Positions 6,160 through 44,023 of a stretch of DNA of 44,023 nt are shown in pieces. The notes under the pieces are model-generated. The model ran no database searches, was not told where the DNA came from, and was given only the letters and a program-made list of their open reading frames with translations. Origin of the DNA: Tabrizicola sp. GTDB taxonomy: Bacteria > Pseudomonadota > Alphaproteobacteria > Rhodobacterales > Rhodobacteraceae. The translations under genes were made by a program, and so were the position numbers. Every line of letters starts with the position of its first letter. Position 1 is the first letter of the stretch. The stretch is taken from positions 1 through 44,023 of the forward strand of contig JAAURK010000002.1 of NCBI GenBank assembly GCA_012032275.1, read 5' to 3'.

Positions 6160-7002
6160 TCACTGACGTTCGACGCGTTTCTTTTGCGACATCATCTGGC
6201 TCATGACGGCATCTGGAATCGCGTCCTTTGCATAGGTGAAGGTACCGGAAAAACGTACTTCACTCGCCGCCCGCAACAAAGCGCCGAAAGCCGCGCGCGC
6301 GAACGATCCGCCAACGCTAATCCTACGAACACCCGCCTCCGAGAGTTCGGCGACTGTATAGCTTTCGCCTCGAAGCCCCATTACTACATTCACCGGCTTG
6401 TCTACAGCACGGCATACCGATCTGATCGCTTCGATATCAGGCAGACCAGGGGCGTACAAAACATCAGCACCTGCCTCGGAAAACGCCTGAAGACGCCTGA
6501 TTGTGTCGCCAAGGTCGGGCTTGCCCCATAAGAAGTTCTCGGCCCTTGCAACGAGCATAAACTGCCCGTCACGAACTACTTCCGCCGCAGCCTTGATACG
6601 TTCAACAGCGTGCGAGAATTCATAGATCGGTGTGCTTTCATCGCCCGTGGCGTCCTCGATCGAGCCTCCAACCAGGCCAACCTCGCAAGCCATTCGGACG
6701 GTCGCAGCACAGGTTTTGGGGTCGGCGCCGAAGCCATCCTCTAGGTCGGCTGACACCGGGAGATCAGTTGCAGCAACGATCTCGGCCGCGTTCTCCAAAA
6801 TCTCGGTTCGGCTAAGTCCCGCAAAAGAATCCCGCTTCCCTTTTGAGAAGGCGTACCCCGCGCTTGTAGTGGCAAGCGCCTCGAACCCGATGTTCGCCAA
6901 CAGGCGCGCGGAACCAGCATCCCATGGATTCGGGATGACAAACGCCGGACCCTGCTCATGAAGCGCCTTGAACCGTTCGTATTTGGTCTCCCGACCTGTC
7001 AT
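6160..7002 (-). CDS. Isocitrate lyase / PEP phosphonomutase family enzyme
   Basis: A 280-residue TIM-barrel enzyme of the ICL/PEPM superfamily. Visible motifs are VIPNPWDAGSARLLANIGFE near the N-terminus, the Mg-binding SADLEDGFG, GGSIEDATG, and VARAENFLWG. The Lys-Cys catalytic loop of true isocitrate or methylisocitrate lyases is not seen, so it belongs with the broad set of oxaloacetate-decarboxylase or carboxyphosphonoenolpyruvate-mutase-like proteins. ATG at 7002 has AGGGGG five bases upstream and is preferred over the TTG 18 bases earlier. No obvious operon partner. Substrate uncertain. Confidence 0.85.
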   Translation of the reverse strand: MTGRETKYERFKALHEQGPAFVIPNPWDAGSARLLANIGFEALATTSAGYAFSKGKRDSFAGLSRTEILENAAEIVAATDLPVSADLEDGFGADPKTCAATVRMACEVGLVGGSIEDATGDESTPIYEFSHAVERIKAAAEVVRDGQFMLVARAENFLWGKPDLGDTIRRLQAFSEAGADVLYAPGLPDIEAIRSVCRAVDKPVNVVMGLRGESYTVAELSEAGVRRISVGGSFARAAFGALLRAASEVRFSGTFTYAKDAIPDAVMSQMMSQKKRVERQ

Positions 7003-7096
7003 GGTGCCCCCTACGACCAAGCTGTCTCAAATCCTATCATGACAGAACAAAAAGAGAACCGACATTCGGCTCGACCAGAGGCCGATGACCGCAAAG

Positions 7097-27672: not shown

Positions 27673-30600
27673 CAGGCAACCTCACGCTCGGAAATGCGCG
27701 AGATAGGCCAGAGGTTGAGTAGCTTGGCAAGCACTCCCGCGCCATCTGGCCCGACGGGCACGAAGAAGCGCAGTTTCCACGAGATGATCTCGCTGAAGAG
27801 GCCATAGGTCCGAAGCCGCTCGCGCAACCCTTCGGTGAACCCGGTCAACTCGATCCGGTTCACCCCCATGACGCGGGAACGGCGAAGTTGCAGGCCCTCC
27901 GCGAGATCGAGGATCGTCTTGCCCTCAAGCAGCGCGGCATAGGCCTGATCCGCGGTCAGGTCTGGCACCCCTGCTCCGGTCGCCGTGGCGGCCCAAGCGG
28001 GCGAAACTCTGCGTCCGATGATCCGCTCGCCGTCATCGGTCTGAAGGCGATAGACCCGGGTTTCGTCCTGAGGCAGGCGCTTCCAGACCGGCAAGAGGAG
28101 ACCCGAGACGACATGCAGGATGCTGTCGGTGAACTCGGGCACTTCGGCGACTTCGGCATTCCATGTCGCAACAAAGGTCGGGCGATCCGTCTCGACCCAT
28201 TGCGTGCCGCCCATGAGGCGGATGGCGATGTTTTGCGCCTCGGTCGGTCGGATCAACCGCACCCGCCGTTCGATCTCGCCATCATCCAGCATCAGGCTGG
28301 TCGTCGGCACCTGCACCGCCGCCCGACCAGAGCGAGTGTTGATCATTAGGACGGCGCGCGGATCGTCGAGTTCAGCCAGCGCCTCGTCCAGCAGCCGGGG
28401 CCGATTGCGGCGGCGCTCCGTGATGGAGAGGAGCCGGGTTTCCGCGCCGGTGGTCGGGTGGGTGTAGATCACCTGCCGGTCGGTGACCCGGAAACTTTCG
28501 GCACGGAGCGTCTCCAGGCCAAGGTCATAGGTGCCCGACGCGATGGCCCCGTCGATCCGCGCCTCGAGAAGTTGCTCGAAGGCCGTAAAGAGGATGCCCT
28601 GCATCTCGATGGTCAGGGCCAGGAGCCGGTTCAAGAAAGTGGGAATCGGCGGCAGGTCATCCTTGATGCCATTGGTGTCCATCAGCTTCAGGCCGGTTGC
28701 CGCCTCGAAACGCTGCAACGAGCAGCCTTCGATCTTGCCGCGCACGATCAGAAGGTAAAGCTGACGCAGCGCATCGCGGGCATAGAGGCTTTCGAGATTG
28801 TCCTCGGGCCGGAACAGCCCCTGCCCTCCCGTCTGACGTTGCCCGCGGGTGATGGCCCCCAATGTGTCGAGCCGGCGCGCGATGGTGCTGAGGAAGCGCT
28901 TCTCCGCCTTCACGTCGGTCGAGATCGGCCGGAACAGCGGCGGCTGCGCCTGATTGGTCCGGTTGGTGCGGCCAAGGCCCTGGATCGCGGCGTCCGCCTT
29001 CCAGCCCGGCTCCAGCAGGTAGTGCACGCGCAAGCGCTGGTTCCTGGCCGAAAGCTCGGCGTGATAGCTGCGTCCGGTGCCCCCGGCATCGGAGAAGATC
29101 AACACGTGCTTCTGGTCATCCATGAATGCGGAGGTCTCCGCGAGATTGGCTGAGGGCGCGCGGGTCTCGACCGCCAACCGCGCCGCCGAGCCTTCGCCCT
29201 TGCGGATGATGCGGCGCGATCGGCCCGTGACTTCAGCCACCACATCCGTCCCGAAGTGCTGGATCACCTGATCGAGCGCGCCTGGAACCGGAGGCAGCGA
29301 GCCCAAGTGTTCCAGCATCTCATCACGCCGGGCGACGGCCTCGCGGCATTCAACCGGCTGGCCATCCCGGAAGACCGGGCGGGACGACAGGTTACCCTCG
29401 CCATCGGTGAAGGGCTCGTAAAGCTGCACCGGGAAGGAATGCTGAAGGTACGAACCTACGTACTCCCTCGGAGTGACATCAACTGTCAGATCATTCCATT
29501 CTTCGGTCGGGATTTCTGCCAGCCGCCGTTCCATCAGCGCCTCGCCGGTCGAGACGATCTGGATGACGGCGGCATGGCCCGCCGCCAGGTCGGCAGTGGC
29601 CGACCGGATCAGGGTCGGGGTTTTCATCGAAGTCAGCAGGTGGCCGAAGAAGCGCTGCTTGGTCGATTCAAAGGCCGAGCGTGCGGCGGATTTGGCCTGG
29701 CGGTTCAGCGTCCCGTCTGACCCGGTGATGTTCGCCGCTTCCATCGCCGCATCGAGGTTGTTGTGGATGACGGCGAAGGCGGCGGCATAGGCATCGTAGA
29801 TCCGGCGCTGTTCTTCGGTCAGTTGATGCTCGACCAGTTCGTATTCGACGCCGTCATAGGAGAGTGACCGCGCGGTATAGAGGCCGCGGGCGCGCAGATC
29901 GCGTGCCAGGACTTCCAGGGCCGCGACGCCCCCGGCCTCAATCGCTTCGACGAATTCGGCGCGGGTAGCAAACGGAAAGTCCTCGCCACCCCAGAGGCCG
30001 AGCCGTTGCGCATAGGCGAGTTGTGGACCGTCGTGGCCCCGGTGGCCGAGACATAGACGACGCGGGCATCTGGCAGAGCATGCTGCAGGCGCAGGCCCGC
30101 CCTGCCCTGCTGCGAGGCTTCCACATCGCCACGCTCGCCCTTGCCGCCGCCCGCATTCTGCATGGCGTGGCTTTCGTCGAAGATGATCACCCCGTCGAAG
30201 TCGCGGCCGAGCCAGTCCACGATCTGCCGGACGCGCGAGACCTTTTCGCCGCGATCATCAGATCGCAGCGTTGCATAGGTGGTGAATAGGATGCCTTCGG
30301 ACAGCGTGATCGGCTTGCCTTGGGCGAAGCGCGACAGCGGCGTCACAAGGAGCCGTTCCTGGCCAAGCGCCGACCAGTCGCGCTGCGCATCCTCGATCAG
30401 CTTGTCGCTCTTCGAGATCCAGACGGCTTTGCGGTGCCCGCGCAGCCAGTTGTCGAGGATGATCCCGGCGGATTGGCGGCCCTTGCCTGCCCCGGTGCCA
30501 TCGCCCAGCATGAAGCCGCGGCGGAAACGGACAGCATCATGCGCGCCGTCAGTCGCTGCGTTGACCGTATCGAAGGTCTCATCGACGGTCCAGCTTTCGG

Positions 30601-31702
30601 CGAGGTGGTCAGAATGGGCTTCGCCGGCATAGATCACGGTCTCCAGTTGGGCATCGGAAAGCCGACCGCGAATGTCGGCAGGCAGCTTCGGCCGATAAGT
30701 CGGGCGGGGCGGGGCGACCGAGGCCATCGCAGCGGATTGCACCAGTTTGGTCGGATGCGGCACCGCGCCGGGAATCCTGATCGATTGCAGGTCGTATTCT
30801 TCATAGATGGCATCTGACAAGCGCGCGGCATTTGGCGGCACAGCATCGATGATCTCGTAAGCAAGCTCGATAGCCGCCGGCGCGAAGGTGGGTTTGCGCA
30901 TTGCCGGGGCCGCATTCGCCCAAGCGAGATAGCCCCGCACCGAGCGCGCCGCAGAGGGCTGCGTCGGTGACGGAGGCTTCGGCAAATCCACCGACAGGCG
31001 CGGTGGCACATGGTCGGCGATCCAGCCGAGCAGGGTCGCGACGTCTGGCGCCATGCCGAGCGAGGCCGGGAACAGAGAAGGGTCGGCAGCGGGGACCTTG
31101 TCGATCACTGTCAGCCGCGTCGGAAACGTCGTGCCGTGCCTTGCATAGACCGAGCCGTTGATCGCCGCCGAAAACACGACGGTCCCGCGTTGCTGCAGAC
31201 CGATGAAAGCTTCGCGCCAGGCGGGCATGTCGGGGCCGAACCCCGCGCCGGTGATCGTGACCAGTCGCCCGCCCGGAGCGAGACGCGCCAGCGCCGAGGC
31301 GATGTGTCGGAACGCGGCGTCCTGCACTTTGCCAGTGACGTTCGCCATGACGGAAAATGGCGGGTTCATCAGGACGACCGACGGCACGGATTCGGAATCG
31401 AGATGGTCATGGATCTGTGCCGCGTCGAAGCGGGTGGCAGAAAGGGCCGGAAAGAGAGATGAGAGGAGATCAGCCCGGGTGTCAGCCAGTTCGTTGAGGA
31501 TCAGGCGGCCACCGGAGATTTCGGCAAGGATGGCCAGAAGGCCGGTTCCGGCTGATGGCTCCAGCACCACGTCGCCGGGCGTGATCGCTGCGGCGGTCAA
31601 TGCCACAAACCCGAGCGGGACTGGTGTCGAAAACTCCGATGACCATTTGTCAATAGGATAGCCATGCGTTTCCCGCCGCCCGGCTTGAATGCCGTTCGTC
31701 AT
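27672..31702 (-). pseudogene. Methyltransferase/strawberry-notch helicase, main part, frameshifted
   Basis: The N-terminal end is a Rossmann methyltransferase: VVLEPSAGTGLLAILAE (motif I) and VVLMNPPFSV (motif IV). It continues into a strawberry-notch-type superfamily 2 helicase with FMLGDGTGAGKGRQSAG (Walker A), VIIFDESHAMQN (DEAH-like) and C-terminal HVLIFSDAGGTGRSYHAELS, GWKADAAIQGLGRTNRTNQA. At 30016-30023, after VSATGATTVHN, the family sequence continues one base out of frame (LAYAQRLGLWGGEDFPF), so one base is missing. Upstream the gene is cut by an insertion element: codons before FSTPVPLG (31633) are element-derived, including the ATG at 31702 with AAGGAG. Joined with the fragment at 33138-33494 it would be about 1,439 residues. 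Confidence 0.88.
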
Positions 31703-31926
31703 CTTCGTTCTCCTTGCGGTGTTGGCAGAGGTCAGGGCACCCGACTTGTTCGACGGTTGCTCAAACTCCGATGCGGGGATCGAAACCCCATTATGGTAAG
31801 CGTCAGAGGCGTTCGTTCATTCTGCTGTCAGATGTCCGGACAGGTCCGGATCTCAATTCTCGATCGACGGTTTGCCTCGTCCCGCGTCAGATGCCCTGGC
31901 CACTGCCAACATACGCACATGCGGGA
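31648..31926 (-). ncRNA. Candidate bridge (seek) RNA region of the IS element
   Basis: IS1111-group elements encode their guide RNA downstream of the transposase. This stretch holds hairpins (TCCGGAC/GTCCGGA around 31835-31850; GGGG/CCCC around 31775-31789). It also has an 11-nt word AAACTCCGATG at 31763-31773 that repeats exactly at the element junction 31631-31641. TCTGCTG at 31821-31827 matches the other junction (33137-33143). Such matches to the ends are expected of guide loops. No RNA model was run. Confidence 0.45.
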
Positions 31927-33036
31927 TCAGACGGCCTTCGGCATGGCGCTGATCGCCGTCGCCCAGATGAAGCCGACCAGTTCGCGGGCAACGGCAGCTG
32001 CGGCAACGGTGCTGCGCTTGCCTCTGCCTTCGAGGCGGCGAAAGCGCTGGTTCAGTCGCACTTGGGCTTTCCACCCAATGTCCTTCAGCGCCTGGCTGTA
32101 GTTTTCCCGTTTCAGCATGAGCAGCACGCCGACCTTGGGGGGCCATTTGTAGGACCATGCGGCCTCGACCAGCATAACCCTCGCAATCTTGTTGCCCGCT
32201 TTCGTGATGCCGCCGGGCCGCTGCTTGCTGCCGCTGGAGTATTCGCTGGGGACCAGACCGAGATAAGCCATCAGTTGGCGCGGACTGGCAAACCGGGAAA
32301 AGTCGCCGATCTCTGCGGCGAGGGTTGCGGCGATGACCATCCCGATCCCCTTGAACACCTGCAGTGCGTGCACCACCGGAGCGAGCGTCCAGCCCGGGAT
32401 CAGATGGACCATCTGGCCCTCGATCTCGGCCTTGCGGGCCTCGGCCTGGTCCAGGCGATTGATATAGCTCTGCAGCGCGAACTTTTGGGCAGCATGCTCA
32501 AGCGGCAGGGATGTCAGCCACTTCCGATAGCGCAGGCACCATGCCTTCGACTTGCACCGCAGTCCATGCTTGAGCAGAAACATCTGGATCAGCGCGCGAG
32601 CTGCCCGGACGTCTTGCGAAGCGACCTGGCGCGCCCGAACCAGATCGCGCATCGCCTCATGGGTGGCGTCGGGCACCCACACAAAGGTAAGTTCGCCTGC
32701 GCGAAGCAGCCGCGCCAGCATCAGCGCATCTCGCGTGTCGTTCTTCACCCGTTCACCCGGCCGCTTCGGTGTATGGCTCGGTGCAACGATCCGGCAGACA
32801 ATCCCCATCTCTGCGAGCTGCCGGTAAATCCCGTAGCCACAAGGACCTGCTTCGTAGGTTACCTCGATCTTGCCGTGGCGCTGAACCAGTTTGCGCATCA
32901 GGCGCGAAACAGCGTCGGGCGTGTTGGTGATTGTCCCATACATCCGGACCTCGCCGTCCCGGCCAGCATCGGCAATCGCAACCGATATACTGTCCTTGTG
33001 CACGTCCAATCCGACAAAAGCATTGTAGTCTTCCAT
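31927..33036 (-). CDS. IS110-family transposase
   Basis: A 369-residue DEDD transposase. The N-terminal RuvC-like domain has FVGLDVHKDSISVAIAD (first Asp), VTYEAGPCGYGIYRQL (Glu) and RVKNDTRDALMLARLLRAG (last two Asp). The C-terminal Transposase_20 domain has LQVFKGIGMVIAATLAAEIG, FASPRQLMAYLGLVPSEYSS and GITKAGNKIARVMLVEAAW, including the conserved Ser region. ATG 33036 has AGGAG seven bases upstream and is preferred over a longer reading. The frame is intact, so the element may still be active. Confidence 0.93.
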   Translation of the reverse strand: MEDYNAFVGLDVHKDSISVAIADAGRDGEVRMYGTITNTPDAVSRLMRKLVQRHGKIEVTYEAGPCGYGIYRQLAEMGIVCRIVAPSHTPKRPGERVKNDTRDALMLARLLRAGELTFVWVPDATHEAMRDLVRARQVASQDVRAARALIQMFLLKHGLRCKSKAWCLRYRKWLTSLPLEHAAQKFALQSYINRLDQAEARKAEIEGQMVHLIPGWTLAPVVHALQVFKGIGMVIAATLAAEIGDFSRFASPRQLMAYLGLVPSEYSSGSKQRPGGITKAGNKIARVMLVEAAWSYKWPPKVGVLLMLKRENYSQALKDIGWKAQVRLNQRFRRLEGRGKRSTVAAAAVARELVGFIWATAISAMPKAV

Positions 33037-33137
33037 GGCATCTCCTGGGGCTGCGGCCCGAAGAAGAGTGCGGACCGCGATCACTCAGCGGCGATCCTGT
33101 CCCACGTCGGCTGGAGCGCCAAGAATGGTCATGCCAT

Positions 33138-33494
33138 CTGCTGCAGCGTCTGACTTTCCTCGGAGCGACGGGTGTGACTGGGCAGAAGGCCCGCGATCTT
33201 CGACAGGGCAGTCAGTCGTGCAACTGGCGTGTCAGCCTGACGGAACATGGCAACTCCGTACTTCCTCAGGAACAGAACGGTCGCGGCCTCGCAGGCGTCA
33301 TACGCCGTCTTCCAGTCCCAGAGGCCGGAGGCATCAGAAACGCCAAAGGCGGTTTCCATGGCCGCGCGCAGCATGGCGGCGTCGACGCGCTGCCCGCGTT
33401 CGAGCAAAGGCAGCAGCAGGCCGGCCGCAGCCAAGATTGCAGAGGCCGGGGCGACCGGCGCTTGCGCCAAGGTCGCCGGGGAGAGGTCGTTCAT
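33138..33494 (-). pseudogene. N-terminal fragment of the split methyltransferase/helicase gene
   Basis: 119 codons starting MNDLSPATLAQAPVAPASAI (ATG 33494, GAGGA eight bases upstream) and ending LLPSHTRRSEESQTLQQ. In intact strawberry-notch/methyltransferase proteins an equivalent HTRRSE..LQQ leads straight into FSTP(L/V)PL, the sequence at 31633 on the far side of the insertion element. After LQQ the frame reads two element-derived codons and stops. The fragment may still be expressed as a short protein. Confidence 0.85.
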
Positions 33495-33868: not shown

Positions 33869-35833
33869 ATGAAGCTGATAAAAGCGCACGCAACCAATTA
33901 TCGAAACATCATCGACTCGAATCCGGTCGATATCGGCCAATCAACATGCTTGGTTGGAAAGAACGAAGCCGGAAAGACCGCTTTCTTGAAAGCGCTCGAG
34001 TGCCTTCGATCAACAAACCCAGAATTCAAGAGCTACGGAAAGACGGAGAATTACCCGCGGCGATATCTGAGCGAGTACGACAATAAGCACGAGGATGGCG
34101 ATGCAGTCGTCATGAGAACCGAGTGGGAATTGGAACCGGCCGATATCAAGGTAATCGAAGCAGCGTTTGGCGAAGGGGTTCTGAATTCCAAGACTATCAC
34201 AATTCAGAAGGCTTACGAGCAGGACACCACAACTTGGTCCGTTCCTGTGGACGAGGAAAAAGCATTCGGCAATCTTGTAAAGCGCTTCGCTCTGGACCAA
34301 GCGGATCGGGTTCCCCTTGTCGCCGCGAAATCGACCAAAGCCGCGATGAAGATCCTTGAGGCGCTGCCGACACCGACCGAGCGCCAGGCTGAGCTTCTGG
34401 CCGCGATCAAGAAGTTTCGGGACGGCTCAGCACACCTCCACGCCATCGACACCCTGAACGCCCGGACGCCAAAGTTCCTCTACTTTTCGCACTACGACCG
34501 CATGAGCGGTGCCCTTTCCATAAACAAGATGAATTCGGACAAGCAACAAGGCCGACCCCTCGAAAGCGGCGACAGGGTGTTTCTCGATTTTCTGGAATAT
34601 GCAGGGACGACGATTGAAGAGCTGGCTGCCCTCGACAAGTTCGAGGAACTGAATGCCAAGTGCGAGGCTGCGGCGCTTCGGATCACCGAGCAGATTTTCG
34701 AGTATTGGACGCAGAACGATGATCTTGAGATAACGGTCGTCCTCTCAGAGGGAAAGGCGGCAGACCCAGCACCTTTCAACAGTGGCCCTATCGCCCGCGC
34801 CCGGGTCAAGAACACCCTGCACGGCGTGACCGTCCCTTTCTCGGAGCGATCCGCCGGGTTCATCTGGTTCTTTTCGTTCCTCGTGAAATTCGCCCAGATC
34901 AAGAAAAGCCACGGCAATGTCATCCTGCTCCTTGATGAGCCTGGGCTGACTCTGCACGGCACCGCTCAAAAGGACCTCTTGCGCTATTTTGCAGAGCAGA
35001 TCGCTCCGAAGCACCAGCTGATCTATTCGACCCACTCGCCCTTCCTCGTGCCGGCCGATGATCTTGCCAGTGTGAGGACGGTCGAGGACGTGGTGGTTCG
35101 GGATGATCGCGGCAGGAAGCAGTCCAAGGGCACCAAGGTTCGCTCAGACGTTCTCACGACCGATCCGCAGACCAACTTCCCGATTTTCGGAGCGATGGGC
35201 TTCGAAGTCACGCAGACGCTGGTGATAGGCAAGAACACACTGCTAGTCGAGGGACCGAGCGACATCCTGTATCTGCAAGCGGCATCAGCTGCGCTCAAGG
35301 CGGCGAAGCGACCTCACCTTTCGGCTCATTGGGCAATCTGCCCATCCGGCGGCATCGACAAGGTGCTGCCGTTCGTGCGGCTGTTCTATGGGAACAAGCT
35401 GAACGTCGCTGTGCTCACAGACTATGACCGTGGGCAAAAGCGCAAGCTCGAGGATCTTCACAAGGCAGCCCTGCTCGAGAACGAGCGGATCATCCTTGCC
35501 ACGGAGATTGCCGGAAAGGACGAAGCCGACATTGAGGATTTCTTCGATCCCCGGTTCTTCGTGGATTTGGTCAACAAGACCTATCAGCTCGGCAAAGCGC
35601 ACCAGCTCACCGTGAAAAAGTTGATGGAAGCGGACGAAACGACCGAGCGGCTGGTCAAGAAGACCGAGGCCTACTTCCGGGTGCTGCCGCCACAAAGCCC
35701 CGAATTCAGCCACTTCGACCCGTCGATGTATCTCTTGCAGCACCCCGAGCTTCTGAGCGGCACCGAGGATCAAGTCGTGAAATCACTTGAGCGGTTCGAA
35801 GCCGCTTTCGAGCGGATCGGCAAATTCATCTAG
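33869..35833 (+). CDS. OLD-family nuclease (ABC ATPase plus Toprim)
   Basis: A 654-residue protein. The ATPase half has Walker A GKNEAGKT (30-37), signature FSERSAGF (324-331), Walker B VILLLDEPGLTLHG (351-364) and H-loop YSTHSPFLV (386-394). The Toprim half has LLVEGPSD (458-464, Glu461) and VLTDYDRGQ (515-523, DxD), with EADIEDFF further on, giving an Mg-dependent nuclease. With no UvrD-like helicase beside it, it fits class 1 OLD. Relatives defend against phages or plasmids. It stands alone between a repeat also found upstream of AbiE and a strong terminator, as cargo. The ATG at 33869 has only a distant AGAGG. Confidence 0.9.
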   Translation: MKLIKAHATNYRNIIDSNPVDIGQSTCLVGKNEAGKTAFLKALECLRSTNPEFKSYGKTENYPRRYLSEYDNKHEDGDAVVMRTEWELEPADIKVIEAAFGEGVLNSKTITIQKAYEQDTTTWSVPVDEEKAFGNLVKRFALDQADRVPLVAAKSTKAAMKILEALPTPTERQAELLAAIKKFRDGSAHLHAIDTLNARTPKFLYFSHYDRMSGALSINKMNSDKQQGRPLESGDRVFLDFLEYAGTTIEELAALDKFEELNAKCEAAALRITEQIFEYWTQNDDLEITVVLSEGKAADPAPFNSGPIARARVKNTLHGVTVPFSERSAGFIWFFSFLVKFAQIKKSHGNVILLLDEPGLTLHGTAQKDLLRYFAEQIAPKHQLIYSTHSPFLVPADDLASVRTVEDVVVRDDRGRKQSKGTKVRSDVLTTDPQTNFPIFGAMGFEVTQTLVIGKNTLLVEGPSDILYLQAASAALKAAKRPHLSAHWAICPSGGIDKVLPFVRLFYGNKLNVAVLTDYDRGQKRKLEDLHKAALLENERIILATEIAGKDEADIEDFFDPRFFVDLVNKTYQLGKAHQLTVKKLMEADETTERLVKKTEAYFRVLPPQSPEFSHFDPSMYLLQHPELLSGTEDQVVKSLERFEAAFERIGKFI

Positions 35834-35879: not shown

Positions 35880-36203
35880 TCAGTCGCCCCGGCGGGTGTT
35901 GGGGCGGGACCAGATGAGGCTCGCGCCCTCGCCGTCTTCGTCATCGAAGAGGTTGGCGTAGATGGGTGCCGCAAAGCTCGGATCGTCCAGCTTCAGGCCC
36001 AGGTATGCTCGGCCCTCGTTCGAGGTCTTCGTCCACGCGGCGCCGATCTCGGCCCGGCCGACCAGGACCCGGTGGGTGGGGGCGTTCTCGCCCGAGGCCC
36101 CCGAGGTCGGGACGAGGCGCACACCCTTGGCCTGCAGGCTGAGGGTGAAAATTTCGCCGGTGTATTCGGTGCCGGTCTTCTTGAAGGTGCCGATGGTCGC
36201 CAT
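35880..36203 (-). CDS. DUF736 family protein, copy 1
   Basis: A 107-residue protein: MATIGTFKKTGTEYTGEIFT, LSLQAKGVRLVPTSG, NAPTHRVLVGRAEIGAAWTK, YLGLKLDDPSFAAPIYANLF. DUF736 proteins are small beta-rich proteins almost always found on alphaproteobacterial plasmids and ICEs; their role is unknown. ATG 36203 has GGAGA seven bases upstream. A second copy with identical protein sequence over the visible part is at the right window edge, 7.9 kb away, beyond the next cargo. Confidence 0.9.
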   Translation of the reverse strand: MATIGTFKKTGTEYTGEIFTLSLQAKGVRLVPTSGASGENAPTHRVLVGRAEIGAAWTKTSNEGRAYLGLKLDDPSFAAPIYANLFDDEDGEGASLIWSRPNTRRGD

Positions 36204-36983: not shown

Positions 36984-37406
36984 TCAATCGATCGCCTTAA
37001 AGATCTCTCCAGCCTCGGGATGGTCGCCCGCGAACTCGTAGAGCCGCATGTAGGCTTCCGACAGCTGATCGGCTTCGTGCTGGAACGACAGATGCGACAA
37101 GGCAAAGAGAGTGGCGATGATCCCGGCAGCCTCGGCCGAAACCTCGCCCATATAGCCGTTGGTCTCGCAAAAGATGCGGAAGCGCTTGTCAGCGTCAGGC
37201 GAGAGGAACAGGGGCTGGCCGTCCCGCTCGTGGAAATGCCAGAGGCCGCCGGTGTAATCATCCGGGGCCAGCCAGGACATGAACTGATAGACGGCGCGCT
37301 CGCCGATCAGCATCAGGGCCGGGCTGAAGAGGGCGGGCAGGAAGGCCATGCGGCGCGCATCGGGCACGACGGTCGCAGGTTGCAAGGTGGTTGCTGCATC
37401 GGTCAT
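36984..37406 (-). CDS. ArdB/KlcA-type antirestriction protein
   Basis: A 140-residue protein of the ArdB/KlcA family. It has ALFSPALMLIGERAVYQFMS, WLAPDDYTGGLWHFHERDGQ, the family's Tyr-Gly-Gly-x-Trp-x-Phe signature, and a C-terminal helical part (LSEAYMRLYEFAGDHPEAGE). These proteins shield an entering element from type I restriction. ATG 37406 with AGGA eight bases upstream. It fits a conjugative element that also carries two relaxases nearby. Confidence 0.85.
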   Translation of the reverse strand: MTDAATTLQPATVVPDARRMAFLPALFSPALMLIGERAVYQFMSWLAPDDYTGGLWHFHERDGQPLFLSPDADKRFRIFCETNGYMGEVSAEAAGIIATLFALSHLSFQHEADQLSEAYMRLYEFAGDHPEAGEIFKAID

Positions 37407-37513: not shown

Positions 37514-37542
37514 TTGAATTTGTTCCCTATATGTTCTATATT
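37514..37542 (+). promoter_or_regulatory. Sigma-70 promoter with an SOS (LexA) box between -35 and -10
   Basis: TTGAAT (37514-37519), 17 bases, TATATT (37537-37542). Within the spacer is GTTC (37522-37525), seven bases, GTTC (37533-37536): the alphaproteobacterial LexA box GTTC-N7-GTTC. LexA bound here would block polymerase, so the next gene should be DNA-damage inducible. Confidence 0.8.
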
Positions 37543-37572
37543 GAGAGCAACGATCCGCATGGGAGACCCATC

Positions 37573-37863
37573 ATGGATGCTGCCCCTTTCGCCCAGCCCG
37601 CCACCGAACGCCAGATCGCCTATGCGCGGTCGCTGGCACTCAGGAACCAGAGCCTGCTGCCTTGGGAAGTCCAGCAGGACCGCCGCTCGCTCAGCGCCTG
37701 GGTCGAGGCGCAAGCGAAGCTGAAACCGTCCGACTCCGGACAGCCGACGTCGAAGCAGGTGGCCTTTGCCGAGCGACTGGCAAGGATCAAGCGCCGCGCG
37801 GTGCCGGATGAGTGCTTCCGCGACCGGCAGTTGCTGTCGCGCTGGATCGACTGCAACAGGTAG
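37573..37863 (+). CDS. Small SOS-regulated protein with a duplicated motif
   Basis: A 96-residue protein with two tandem similar units. Unit one is TERQIAYARSLALRN...LP with RRSLSAWV; unit two is TSKQVAFAERLARIKRRAVP with RQLLSRWID. The pattern (T-x-x-Q, hydrophobic helix, Pro, Arg, then Leu-Ser-x-Trp) resembles small helical motifs of plasmid proteins but I cannot name the family. ATG 37573 has GGGAGA six bases upstream. Expression is probably controlled by LexA through the box at 37522. It is alone on the plus strand between minus-strand backbone genes. Confidence 0.7.
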   Translation: MDAAPFAQPATERQIAYARSLALRNQSLLPWEVQQDRRSLSAWVEAQAKLKPSDSGQPTSKQVAFAERLARIKRRAVPDECFRDRQLLSRWIDCNR

Positions 37864-42069: not shown

Positions 42070-42662
42070 ATGAAGCGTGTCCGTGCAAACGGACGCGGCA
42101 GCGTCTTCACGCCACGTGATTTCCTCGACATCGCGGCCCGCGCCGCAGTCGACCAGGCCCTGTCGCGGCTGGCGAAATCCGGCCAACTGAGGCGACTTGC
42201 CCGCGGGCTCTATGATTTTCCCAAGCTGCACCCCAAACTGGGGCCTCTGTCCCCTGTGCCGGACGATGTGGCACAGGCTCTCGCCCGGGAAACCGGTTCC
42301 CACCTGCAAATCGACGGCGCCCGCGCCGCAAACGCCCTTGGCCTTTCGACCCAGGTTGCGGCCCAAAGCTCCTGGCTCACCGATGGCCCCTCCCGACGTG
42401 TCTACTGGGCAAGCGCATCGTGGACCTCCGCCATGCCTCGCCCAAGCATCTGATCGCCCCCGGCAGCCCAGCCGGGACTGTCGTTCAGGCGCTGCGGCAT
42501 GTCGGCGTGTCCCGCGCTGCAGATGTGGCGCAAGTCGCGGCCCGTACCCTGTCGGACGGCGACAAGAAGATCCTCAGCAAGAGCGCAGCTCAAGCGCCTG
42601 CCTGGATGCGCGCTACTCTTCTGTCGATTGCCGGTCACGGATTGGGCGATCTTCGTGGATAA
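42070..42662 (+). pseudogene. AbiEi-type antitoxin/repressor, frameshifted
   Basis: From ATG 42070: MKRVRANGRGSVFTPRDFLD, then a winged-helix (VDQALSRLAKSGQLRRLARG LYDFP) and HLQIDGARAANALGLSTQVA. After LTDGPSRRVY near 42405-42409 the frame is lost. The family C-terminus continues in the next frame: GKRIVDLRHASPKHLIAPGS, TVVQALRHVGVSRAADV, APAWMRATLLSIAGHG, ending 42662. One more base restores about 197 residues. AbiEi neutralises the AbiEii toxin and represses the operon. If the frameshift were real the toxin would lack its antitoxin, so a sequencing error is likelier. Confidence 0.88.
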
Positions 42663-43692
42663 GGTCGCCCGCCTCCCAGCCGCTGAGCGGGCTGCACTGT
42701 TCGGGGAAAGCGCCGCCGCGAGAGGTGTCTCCAACACGATCATCGAGAAGGACTTCTGGGTCTGCTGGACCCTGCGGCGCATCTTTGCCATGCCGAAAGG
42801 CGAGACGGCCTCACTTGTCTTCAAGGGCGGGACCTCGCTTTCCAAGGCATACAACGCGATCCGGCGGTTTTCCGAAGACATCGACCTGTCGTTTGACCGC
42901 GCCGACCTCGGATATGCCGGTGATCGTGACCCTGAAATGGAAGGCCTCGGCCGAAAGAAGACGGAGAAACTGATCGACGATCTCGGTGCCGATGTCGCGG
43001 CCCATATCGCAGGCAGATTTCTCCCTACCCTGCGGGCCGCCTTCGTCAGCGCCTTGGGAGAACCTTCCCAGGGAGAATGGTCTCTGGTCATCGATCCTGC
43101 CGATGCCCAGACAGTGAACTTCCACTACCCGCCTGCGTTTGCCAGCGCCGAATATGCCGGAATGTCTTACATCACCCCCCGCGTGAAACTTGAGCTCGGA
43201 GCCCGTGGTGATCCCTGGCCAACGGAGGAAAAGGTGATCCTGCCCTATGCGGCCGAGGACTTCCCCTCATTCTTCGAGGACCCCGACACAACAGTGACCG
43301 TCCTCTCAGCGCGACGCACGTTCTGGGAGAAGGTCACGGCACTCCATGCAGAAGCCCATCGGCCAGAAGGCTCCCCCACGCCGCAATATTTCTCGCGACA
43401 CTTCTACGATATCGCGATGCTGCTTGAGACCGTCGAGGGGAAGGCGGCAGCGCAAGATTTCGACCTCCTGGCGCAGGTCGCGCGGCACAAGTCGATCTTC
43501 TTTCGCTCTGCCTGGGCAAGCTATGATACCGCGAAGTCTGGATCGCTGCGGCTCGTGCCCAGTGAAGAGAGGATCAAGGATCTCCGCGCCGATTACCGAG
43601 CCATGGGCCCGATGATGTTCGACGCGAAGGCACCTGCCTTCGACGAAATTCTGGCCCGGATCGGGCAGTTCGAGGACGATGTGAACCGCTGA
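42655..43692 (+). CDS. AbiEii-type nucleotidyltransferase toxin
   Basis: A 345-residue protein of the AbiEii (DUF1814) nucleotidyltransferase family. It has GVSNTIIEKDFWVCWTLRRI, the GG-S motif VFKGGTSLSKAY and the DxD metal site FSEDIDLSFDR, then the later Arg/Lys and His region (SARRTFWEKVTALHAEAHRP). I start at GTG 42655 because the family begins (M)DKVARLPAxxR and this codon overlaps the antitoxin stop; an earlier ATG frame runs through the antitoxin gene. Type IV toxin of an abortive-infection and plasmid-stabilising pair. All catalytic motifs are intact. Confidence 0.9.
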   Translation: MDKVARLPAAERAALFGESAAARGVSNTIIEKDFWVCWTLRRIFAMPKGETASLVFKGGTSLSKAYNAIRRFSEDIDLSFDRADLGYAGDRDPEMEGLGRKKTEKLIDDLGADVAAHIAGRFLPTLRAAFVSALGEPSQGEWSLVIDPADAQTVNFHYPPAFASAEYAGMSYITPRVKLELGARGDPWPTEEKVILPYAAEDFPSFFEDPDTTVTVLSARRTFWEKVTALHAEAHRPEGSPTPQYFSRHFYDIAMLLETVEGKAAAQDFDLLAQVARHKSIFFRSAWASYDTAKSGSLRLVPSEERIKDLRADYRAMGPMMFDAKAPAFDEILARIGQFEDDVNR

Positions 43693-43780: not shown

Positions 43781-44023
43781 TCAGTCGCCGCGGCGGGTGT
43801 TGGGGCGGGACCAGATGAGGCTCGCGCCCTCGCCGTCTTCGTCATCGAAGAGGTTGGCGTAGATCGGAGCGGCGAAGCTCGGATCGTCCAGCTTCAGGCC
43901 CAGGTATGCTCGGCCCTCGTTCGAGGTCTTCGTCCACGCGGCGCCGATCTCGGCCCGGCCGACCAGGACCCGGTGGGTGGGGGCGTTCTCGCCCGAGGCG
44001 CCCGAGGTCGGGACGAGGCGCAC
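43781..44023 (-). CDS. DUF736 family protein, copy 2 (runs off the right edge)
   Basis: Eighty codons plus stop, still open at the window edge, so the start lies outside. The visible protein (RLVPTSGASGENAPTHRVLV, GLKLDDPSFAAPIYANLFDD, SLIWSRPNTRRGD) is identical to the same part of copy 1, with a few silent base changes (for example near 43863-43873). Copy 2 and its terminator form a direct repeat with 35843-36150 or so. It was probably produced by duplication of a backbone segment or by recombination between related elements. Confidence 0.9.
   Translation of the reverse strand: MRLVPTSGASGENAPTHRVLVGRAEIGAAWTKTSNEGRAYLGLKLDDPSFAAPIYANLFDDEDGEGASLIWSRPNTRRGD

Follow-up and report, generated by a model that had tools for sequence, protein, structure and literature searches.

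A small two-repeat gene of Rhodobacteraceae, mostly adjacent to plasmid-type backbone genes, with a conserved, probably LexA-controlled promoter

Is a small accessory gene of Tabrizicola sp., located next to an antirestriction gene, switched on by the SOS system of its host? The question is raised by a stretch of 44,023 nucleotides (hereafter the window), in which a reading of the sequence alone had noticed a GTTC-N7-GTTC motif between a good -35 and a good -10 element and had proposed that the 96-residue protein encoded downstream is induced by DNA damage. GTTC-N7-GTTC is the LexA motif of Alphaproteobacteria (PMC3323433, PMC8565304).

Architecture and conservation of the promoter region

The promoter proved to be built as proposed. 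A -35-like hexamer TTGAAT (37514-37519, + strand; the family consensus is TTGATT) and a -10-like hexamer TATATT (37537-37542, +), both evident in the sequence and in a promoter scan, are separated by a spacer of 17 bp, which accommodates the predicted LexA operator GTTC-CCTATAT-GTTC (GTTCCCTATATGTTC, 37522-37536, +), assigned from the motif match and its conservation in the family; the -10 hexamer abuts the 3' end of the box. The TTGAAT/TATATT pair is the sole sigma-70-like site that the scan found between 36.9 and 38.5 kb, where 0.1 were expected. Further downstream, a likely ribosome-binding site GGGAGA (37561-37566, +), corresponding to a GGGAG-like stretch kept upstream of the homologues, precedes the ATG at 37573, and this start is conserved among the homologues. 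Another in-frame ATG at 37531 is unlikely to serve as the start, because it falls within the box, ahead of the -10 hexamer.

By itself, a single GTTC-N7-GTTC box is weak evidence, as the motif is short and its frequency is near the chance level: the window contains three such sites versus about 1.1 expected by chance, and the genome contains 107 versus 88 for the reversed control pattern. The real evidence is the conservation in the family. The sequence-only reading had called for a comparison of the regions upstream of homologues, and this comparison, carried out for 100 members from 80 public genome loci, related genomes and plasmids, revealed an exact box upstream of the start in 96 of them, mostly at -49 to -51. 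Three further homologues (L015, L090 and L097) possess a box with a single mismatch, and in the remaining one, L086, the DNA upstream of the gene, close to a contig edge, is of a different sequence. As most homologues are 70-93% identical, a part of this conservation reflects shared descent.

When columns were counted over 78 distinct upstream regions, the GTTC bases came out invariant partly by construction, since the alignment was anchored on GTT[C/T]-N7-GTTC; the count also shows free variation at the spacer centre, with the -35 and -10 elements kept (the TTG of the -35 in 76-77 of the 78 regions). L017 and L140, two distant homologues that are roughly half identical, have the box shifted by one half-site (GTTCTATATTTGTTC), i.e. 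the first half-site occupies the usual position of the second, and a new second half-site follows the same -10. Because these two retain the motif in a shifted register, selection seems to act on the half-site pair itself and not only on the promoter spacing, which argues that the two GTTC words are maintained as a pair.

Neighbourhoods and distribution of the gene

In the window, the divergent neighbour of the small gene encodes an antirestriction protein (36984-37406, -; PF03230, E 1.2e-35). Analysis of 84 loci reveals a variable context: the divergent upstream gene is a PF03230 antirestriction protein in 17 of them and a plasmid-backbone methylase/helicase in about 35, while in 23 the divergent upstream region holds an ArdC-like metallopeptidase. 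Several copies are found amid unrelated metabolic genes, among them those of P. denitrificans plasmid 1 and of Gemmobacter fulvus p1, which both keep the box with none of the tested backbone genes nearby. Altogether, at least four types of neighbourhood can be distinguished, with identical proteins occurring in two of them. On the protein tree, which is poorly resolved, parsimony yields 11 context changes versus a minimum of three.

Pairwise comparison of context-switched copies at the DNA level shows 74-96% identity. The similarity sets in at the promoter region, between -57 (distant pairs) and about -170 (close pairs), and for most of the pairs it stops at the stop codon or within a few bases of it. 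Because the conserved DNA extends from the promoter to the stop codon in at least four neighbourhoods, the operator belongs to the small gene and moves with it, and by this comparison the promoter, the operator and the gene constitute a self-contained unit. Another contig of the Tabrizicola genome (G000:C381; L018/L120) carries a further copy of the gene, 79% identical and equipped with a box of its own, in a methylase/helicase context.

Homologues were identified in 148 PLSDB plasmid records (at coverage of at least 80%) and in 249 related genome stretches. Judging from the sequences sampled, the stand-alone protein is almost exclusive to Rhodobacteraceae, where its gene is located mostly beside plasmid-type backbone genes; genomes sampled from the class and the phylum yielded clear stand-alone copies in the same family only. 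We also found a truncated copy on a Rhizobiaceae plasmid and a few loci with other taxon labels, in metagenome-derived records. A search outside the family for homologues that had switched to the CTGT-N8-ACAG box of Beta- and Gammaproteobacteria returned nothing but tails of topoisomerases and short, unclear matches, and in the accessible portions of papers on Sulfitobacter plasmids and prophages no such gene is named. Homologues were absent from the viral contigs searched, and phage records gave one weak match only (E 0.1). Three viral contigs (L203 at 4998, L204 at 8287 and L205 at 7831) contain the promoter-operator pattern TTGATTTTGTTC-N4-TATGTTCTAT, which in two of them precedes a different small ORF.

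The regulator of the operator

The Tabrizicola genome encodes one LexA, and a box is located about 33 bases upstream of lexA. The same operator precedes recA, and in a survey that listed 100 of the 107 GTTC-N7-GTTC sites of the genome we found boxes upstream of uvrA, uvrD and an mmcB-like gene, these genes being named by eye from their translations. Among relatives, 24 of 29 lexA loci carry the motif. A position weight matrix trained on SOS boxes and disregarding the invariant GTTC positions assigned 7.6 bits to the box at 37522-37536, a value within the range of true boxes, versus a median of 5.7 for SOS boxes scored in a leave-one-out manner and of -3.5 for other GTTC-N7-GTTC sites; 18% of the background sites, which include some real SOS boxes, score at least as high. 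With the box conserved in the family and the same operator found at lexA, recA and repair genes, comparison strongly supports the proposed SOS control, and we regard regulation of the small gene by the host LexA as highly probable.

The small gene resembles the members of the alphaproteobacterial LexA regulon (lexA, recA, uvrA, uvrD, mmcB) in the motif, in its extended TGTTC-N6-TGTTC form, and in the position of the motif over the promoter, but it differs from them in being an uncharacterised accessory gene, usually located next to plasmid-type backbone genes, and not a core repair gene. In the literature searched, no report on its expression was found. Another box of the window (GTTCTCTTTTTGTTC, 7045-7059, -), about 25 bases ahead of an ORF similar to isocitrate lyase/PEP mutase (6160-7020, -), may have arisen by chance, as its matrix score is low (1.4).

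Two other explanations of the conserved box have to be weighed against LexA. The box might be the operator of another regulator, e.g. a repressor encoded by the element, given that it is linked to LexA via the sequence motif only and that the 3' part of its spacer (TAT) is more conserved than in the lexA and recA boxes. However, the box persists in isolated copies of the gene that reside on replicons unrelated to each other, such as P. denitrificans plasmid 1 and G. fulvus p1, and its retention there in the absence of the tested backbone genes points to a host-encoded regulator; moreover, the same motif is present at lexA, recA and uvrA of the Tabrizicola genome, and we consider an alternative regulator improbable. 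It is even harder to maintain that the GTTC words are simply a part of a conserved strong promoter that operates without any regulator. Their position between or next to the -35 and -10 elements, which are conserved too, would fit such an explanation, but sigma-70 promoters do not require words of this kind in the spacer, and L017 and L140 retain an intact GTTC-N7-GTTC although its register relative to the same -10 has changed, which leaves the promoter-only explanation a very slim chance.

Regulation by LexA would operate as follows. The host LexA would bind GTTC-N7-GTTC between the -35 and -10 elements and block RNA polymerase; RecA filaments formed on single-stranded DNA (as a result of damage, at stalled forks, or on incoming conjugative DNA) would lead to cleavage of LexA, upon which the gene for the 96-aa protein would be switched on. 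By analogy with the known biology of LexA, such repression and induction are very likely.

The two-repeat protein, its possible role and the surrounding window

The ORF call and family searches define the product (P0001, 37573-37863, +) as a protein of 96 residues that belongs to no known family: searches of Pfam, NCBIfam, PHROGs and PADLOC assigned none, HA and TfoX_N were rejected as weak matches below the cut-off, and the sole match in a sequence search of the PDB was FixJ (E 0.93). The protein is basic and hydrophilic (11 kDa, pI 10.2, charge +5.5, GRAVY -0.71), and its gene is under purifying selection, with dN/dS of 0.07-0.25. The two tandem motif units that had been noticed in the sequence were recovered by self-alignment as repeats comprising residues 11-45 (37603-37707, +) and 59-93 (37747-37851, +), which are identical at 13 of 35 positions and align with a score of 66, versus a mean of 20 and a maximum of 39 for shuffled sequences. 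An AlphaFold2 model (pLDDT 84.7, pTM 0.49) is all-helical and consists of two three-helix units, with helices 12-24, 31-34 and 37-48 in the first and 60-72, 79-82 and 85-95 in the second. The model supports the earlier description of a small helical protein made of two units; it does not establish a dimer-like form, since at this pTM the mutual placement of the units is uncertain. Comparison with solved structures gave no significant match (Foldseek best E 2; VIA best Z 4.9 over 47 residues), the best of the weak ones being the C-terminal domain of Redbeta.

Searches with tblastn and a profile related the repeats to a C-terminal tail that some element-borne type IA topoisomerases possess; one such enzyme is encoded in the Tabrizicola genome itself (G000:C367, L021), and others are encoded on plasmids. 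The local alignment of the 96-aa protein with the topoisomerase tail scores 146, versus a maximum of 58 for shuffled sequences. The tail of these TopB-like enzymes comprises two tandem units that follow the repeat pattern of the small protein, and repeat 2 exhibits 57% identity to the tail from the same genome; unlike the tailed enzymes, which possess the Toprim and Topoisom_bac domains, the 96-aa protein lacks both and stands alone, with its own promoter and operator. Among nine genomes with the small gene, a topoisomerase with a recognisable tail was found only in the Tabrizicola genome, and a joint function is therefore not supported by co-occurrence. The tailed topoisomerase of G000:C367 is adjoined by a protelomerase-like ORF, recognised by eye (L021, 1804-2868), and in plasmid p2 of Paracoccus sp. 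TOH a gene annotated as "protelomerase family protein" follows a topoisomerase.

YebG (PF07130) is a small LexA/SOS-controlled protein of enterobacteria, to which the 96-aa protein is similar in size and in its probable SOS control. A fragment of a Variovorax topoisomerase matched YebG below the threshold. We rejected the identity of the 96-aa family with YebG, as a scan of nine members with the YebG model returned no match at a cut-off as lax as E 10.

As to the function, the charge of the protein, the homology of its repeats and its neighbourhood would be consistent with an SOS-induced accessory protein, one binding either DNA or a partner in replication or repair and helping the DNA of the conjugative element to survive under SOS conditions, and we put this role forward, tentatively, as the most likely one. 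The link to conjugation is circumstantial, in that the divergent neighbours are mostly genes of the antirestriction/ArdC type or the plasmid-backbone methylase/helicase. A broader and somewhat more doubtful scenario is that a detached tail module of a topoisomerase became a self-contained SOS-induced gene, which moves together with its LexA operator among the plasmid backbones of Rhodobacteraceae and, next to antirestriction genes, might act on incoming or damaged single-stranded DNA of the element as a previously undescribed SOS-controlled aid to establishment or repair.

The neighbouring antirestriction and ArdC-like genes could also be taken to mean that the product is an anti-SOS/establishment factor similar to PsiB, made upon entry into a new cell, with LexA control as a feedback. 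Such a factor would accord with ArdC being a ssDNA-binding protein required in recipients (PMC7213743) and with the induction of SOS by conjugation (PMC2958807), but isolated copies reside on replicons typed as non-mobilizable, and we find a PsiB-like product unlikely. Far less plausible still is a TisB-type toxin induced by the SOS response: the protein is small and probably SOS-controlled, as such toxins are, but its pI and GRAVY are those of a soluble basic protein, and PADLOC gave no match.

What is described here is a new family of a kind already known, namely an accessory gene probably controlled by LexA. The likely SOS regulon of Rhodobacteraceae gains with it a widespread uncharacterised protein family tied to genes of the antirestriction/establishment type, and the persistence of the conserved, probable SOS switch despite changes of neighbours makes the product a good candidate for an accessory protein induced by damage or mating. 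It can be directly tested whether conjugative elements of Rhodobacteraceae use the SOS signal of the host (e.g. upon single-strand entry) to turn on a protective factor.

Elsewhere in the window, a backbone methylase/helicase gene is apparently split (29819-33494, -): a transposase-like ORF at 31927-33084, judged by eye to be IS110-like, separates its N-terminal piece (33129-33494) from the rest, which is distributed over more than one ORF. A 74-base exact direct repeat (35890-35963 and 43791-43864) is located inside two DUF736 genes. The second DUF736 copy is cut short by the contig end, so that the 7.9-kb segment with the gene for the 96-aa protein lies between the two copies. Defence-type genes flank the region on both sides, i.e. 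an OLD-like AAA ATPase with a TOPRIM domain (33869-35833, +), for which PADLOC reports AriA/Old/GajA-like matches, and an AbiEi/AbiEii pair (42070-43692, +).
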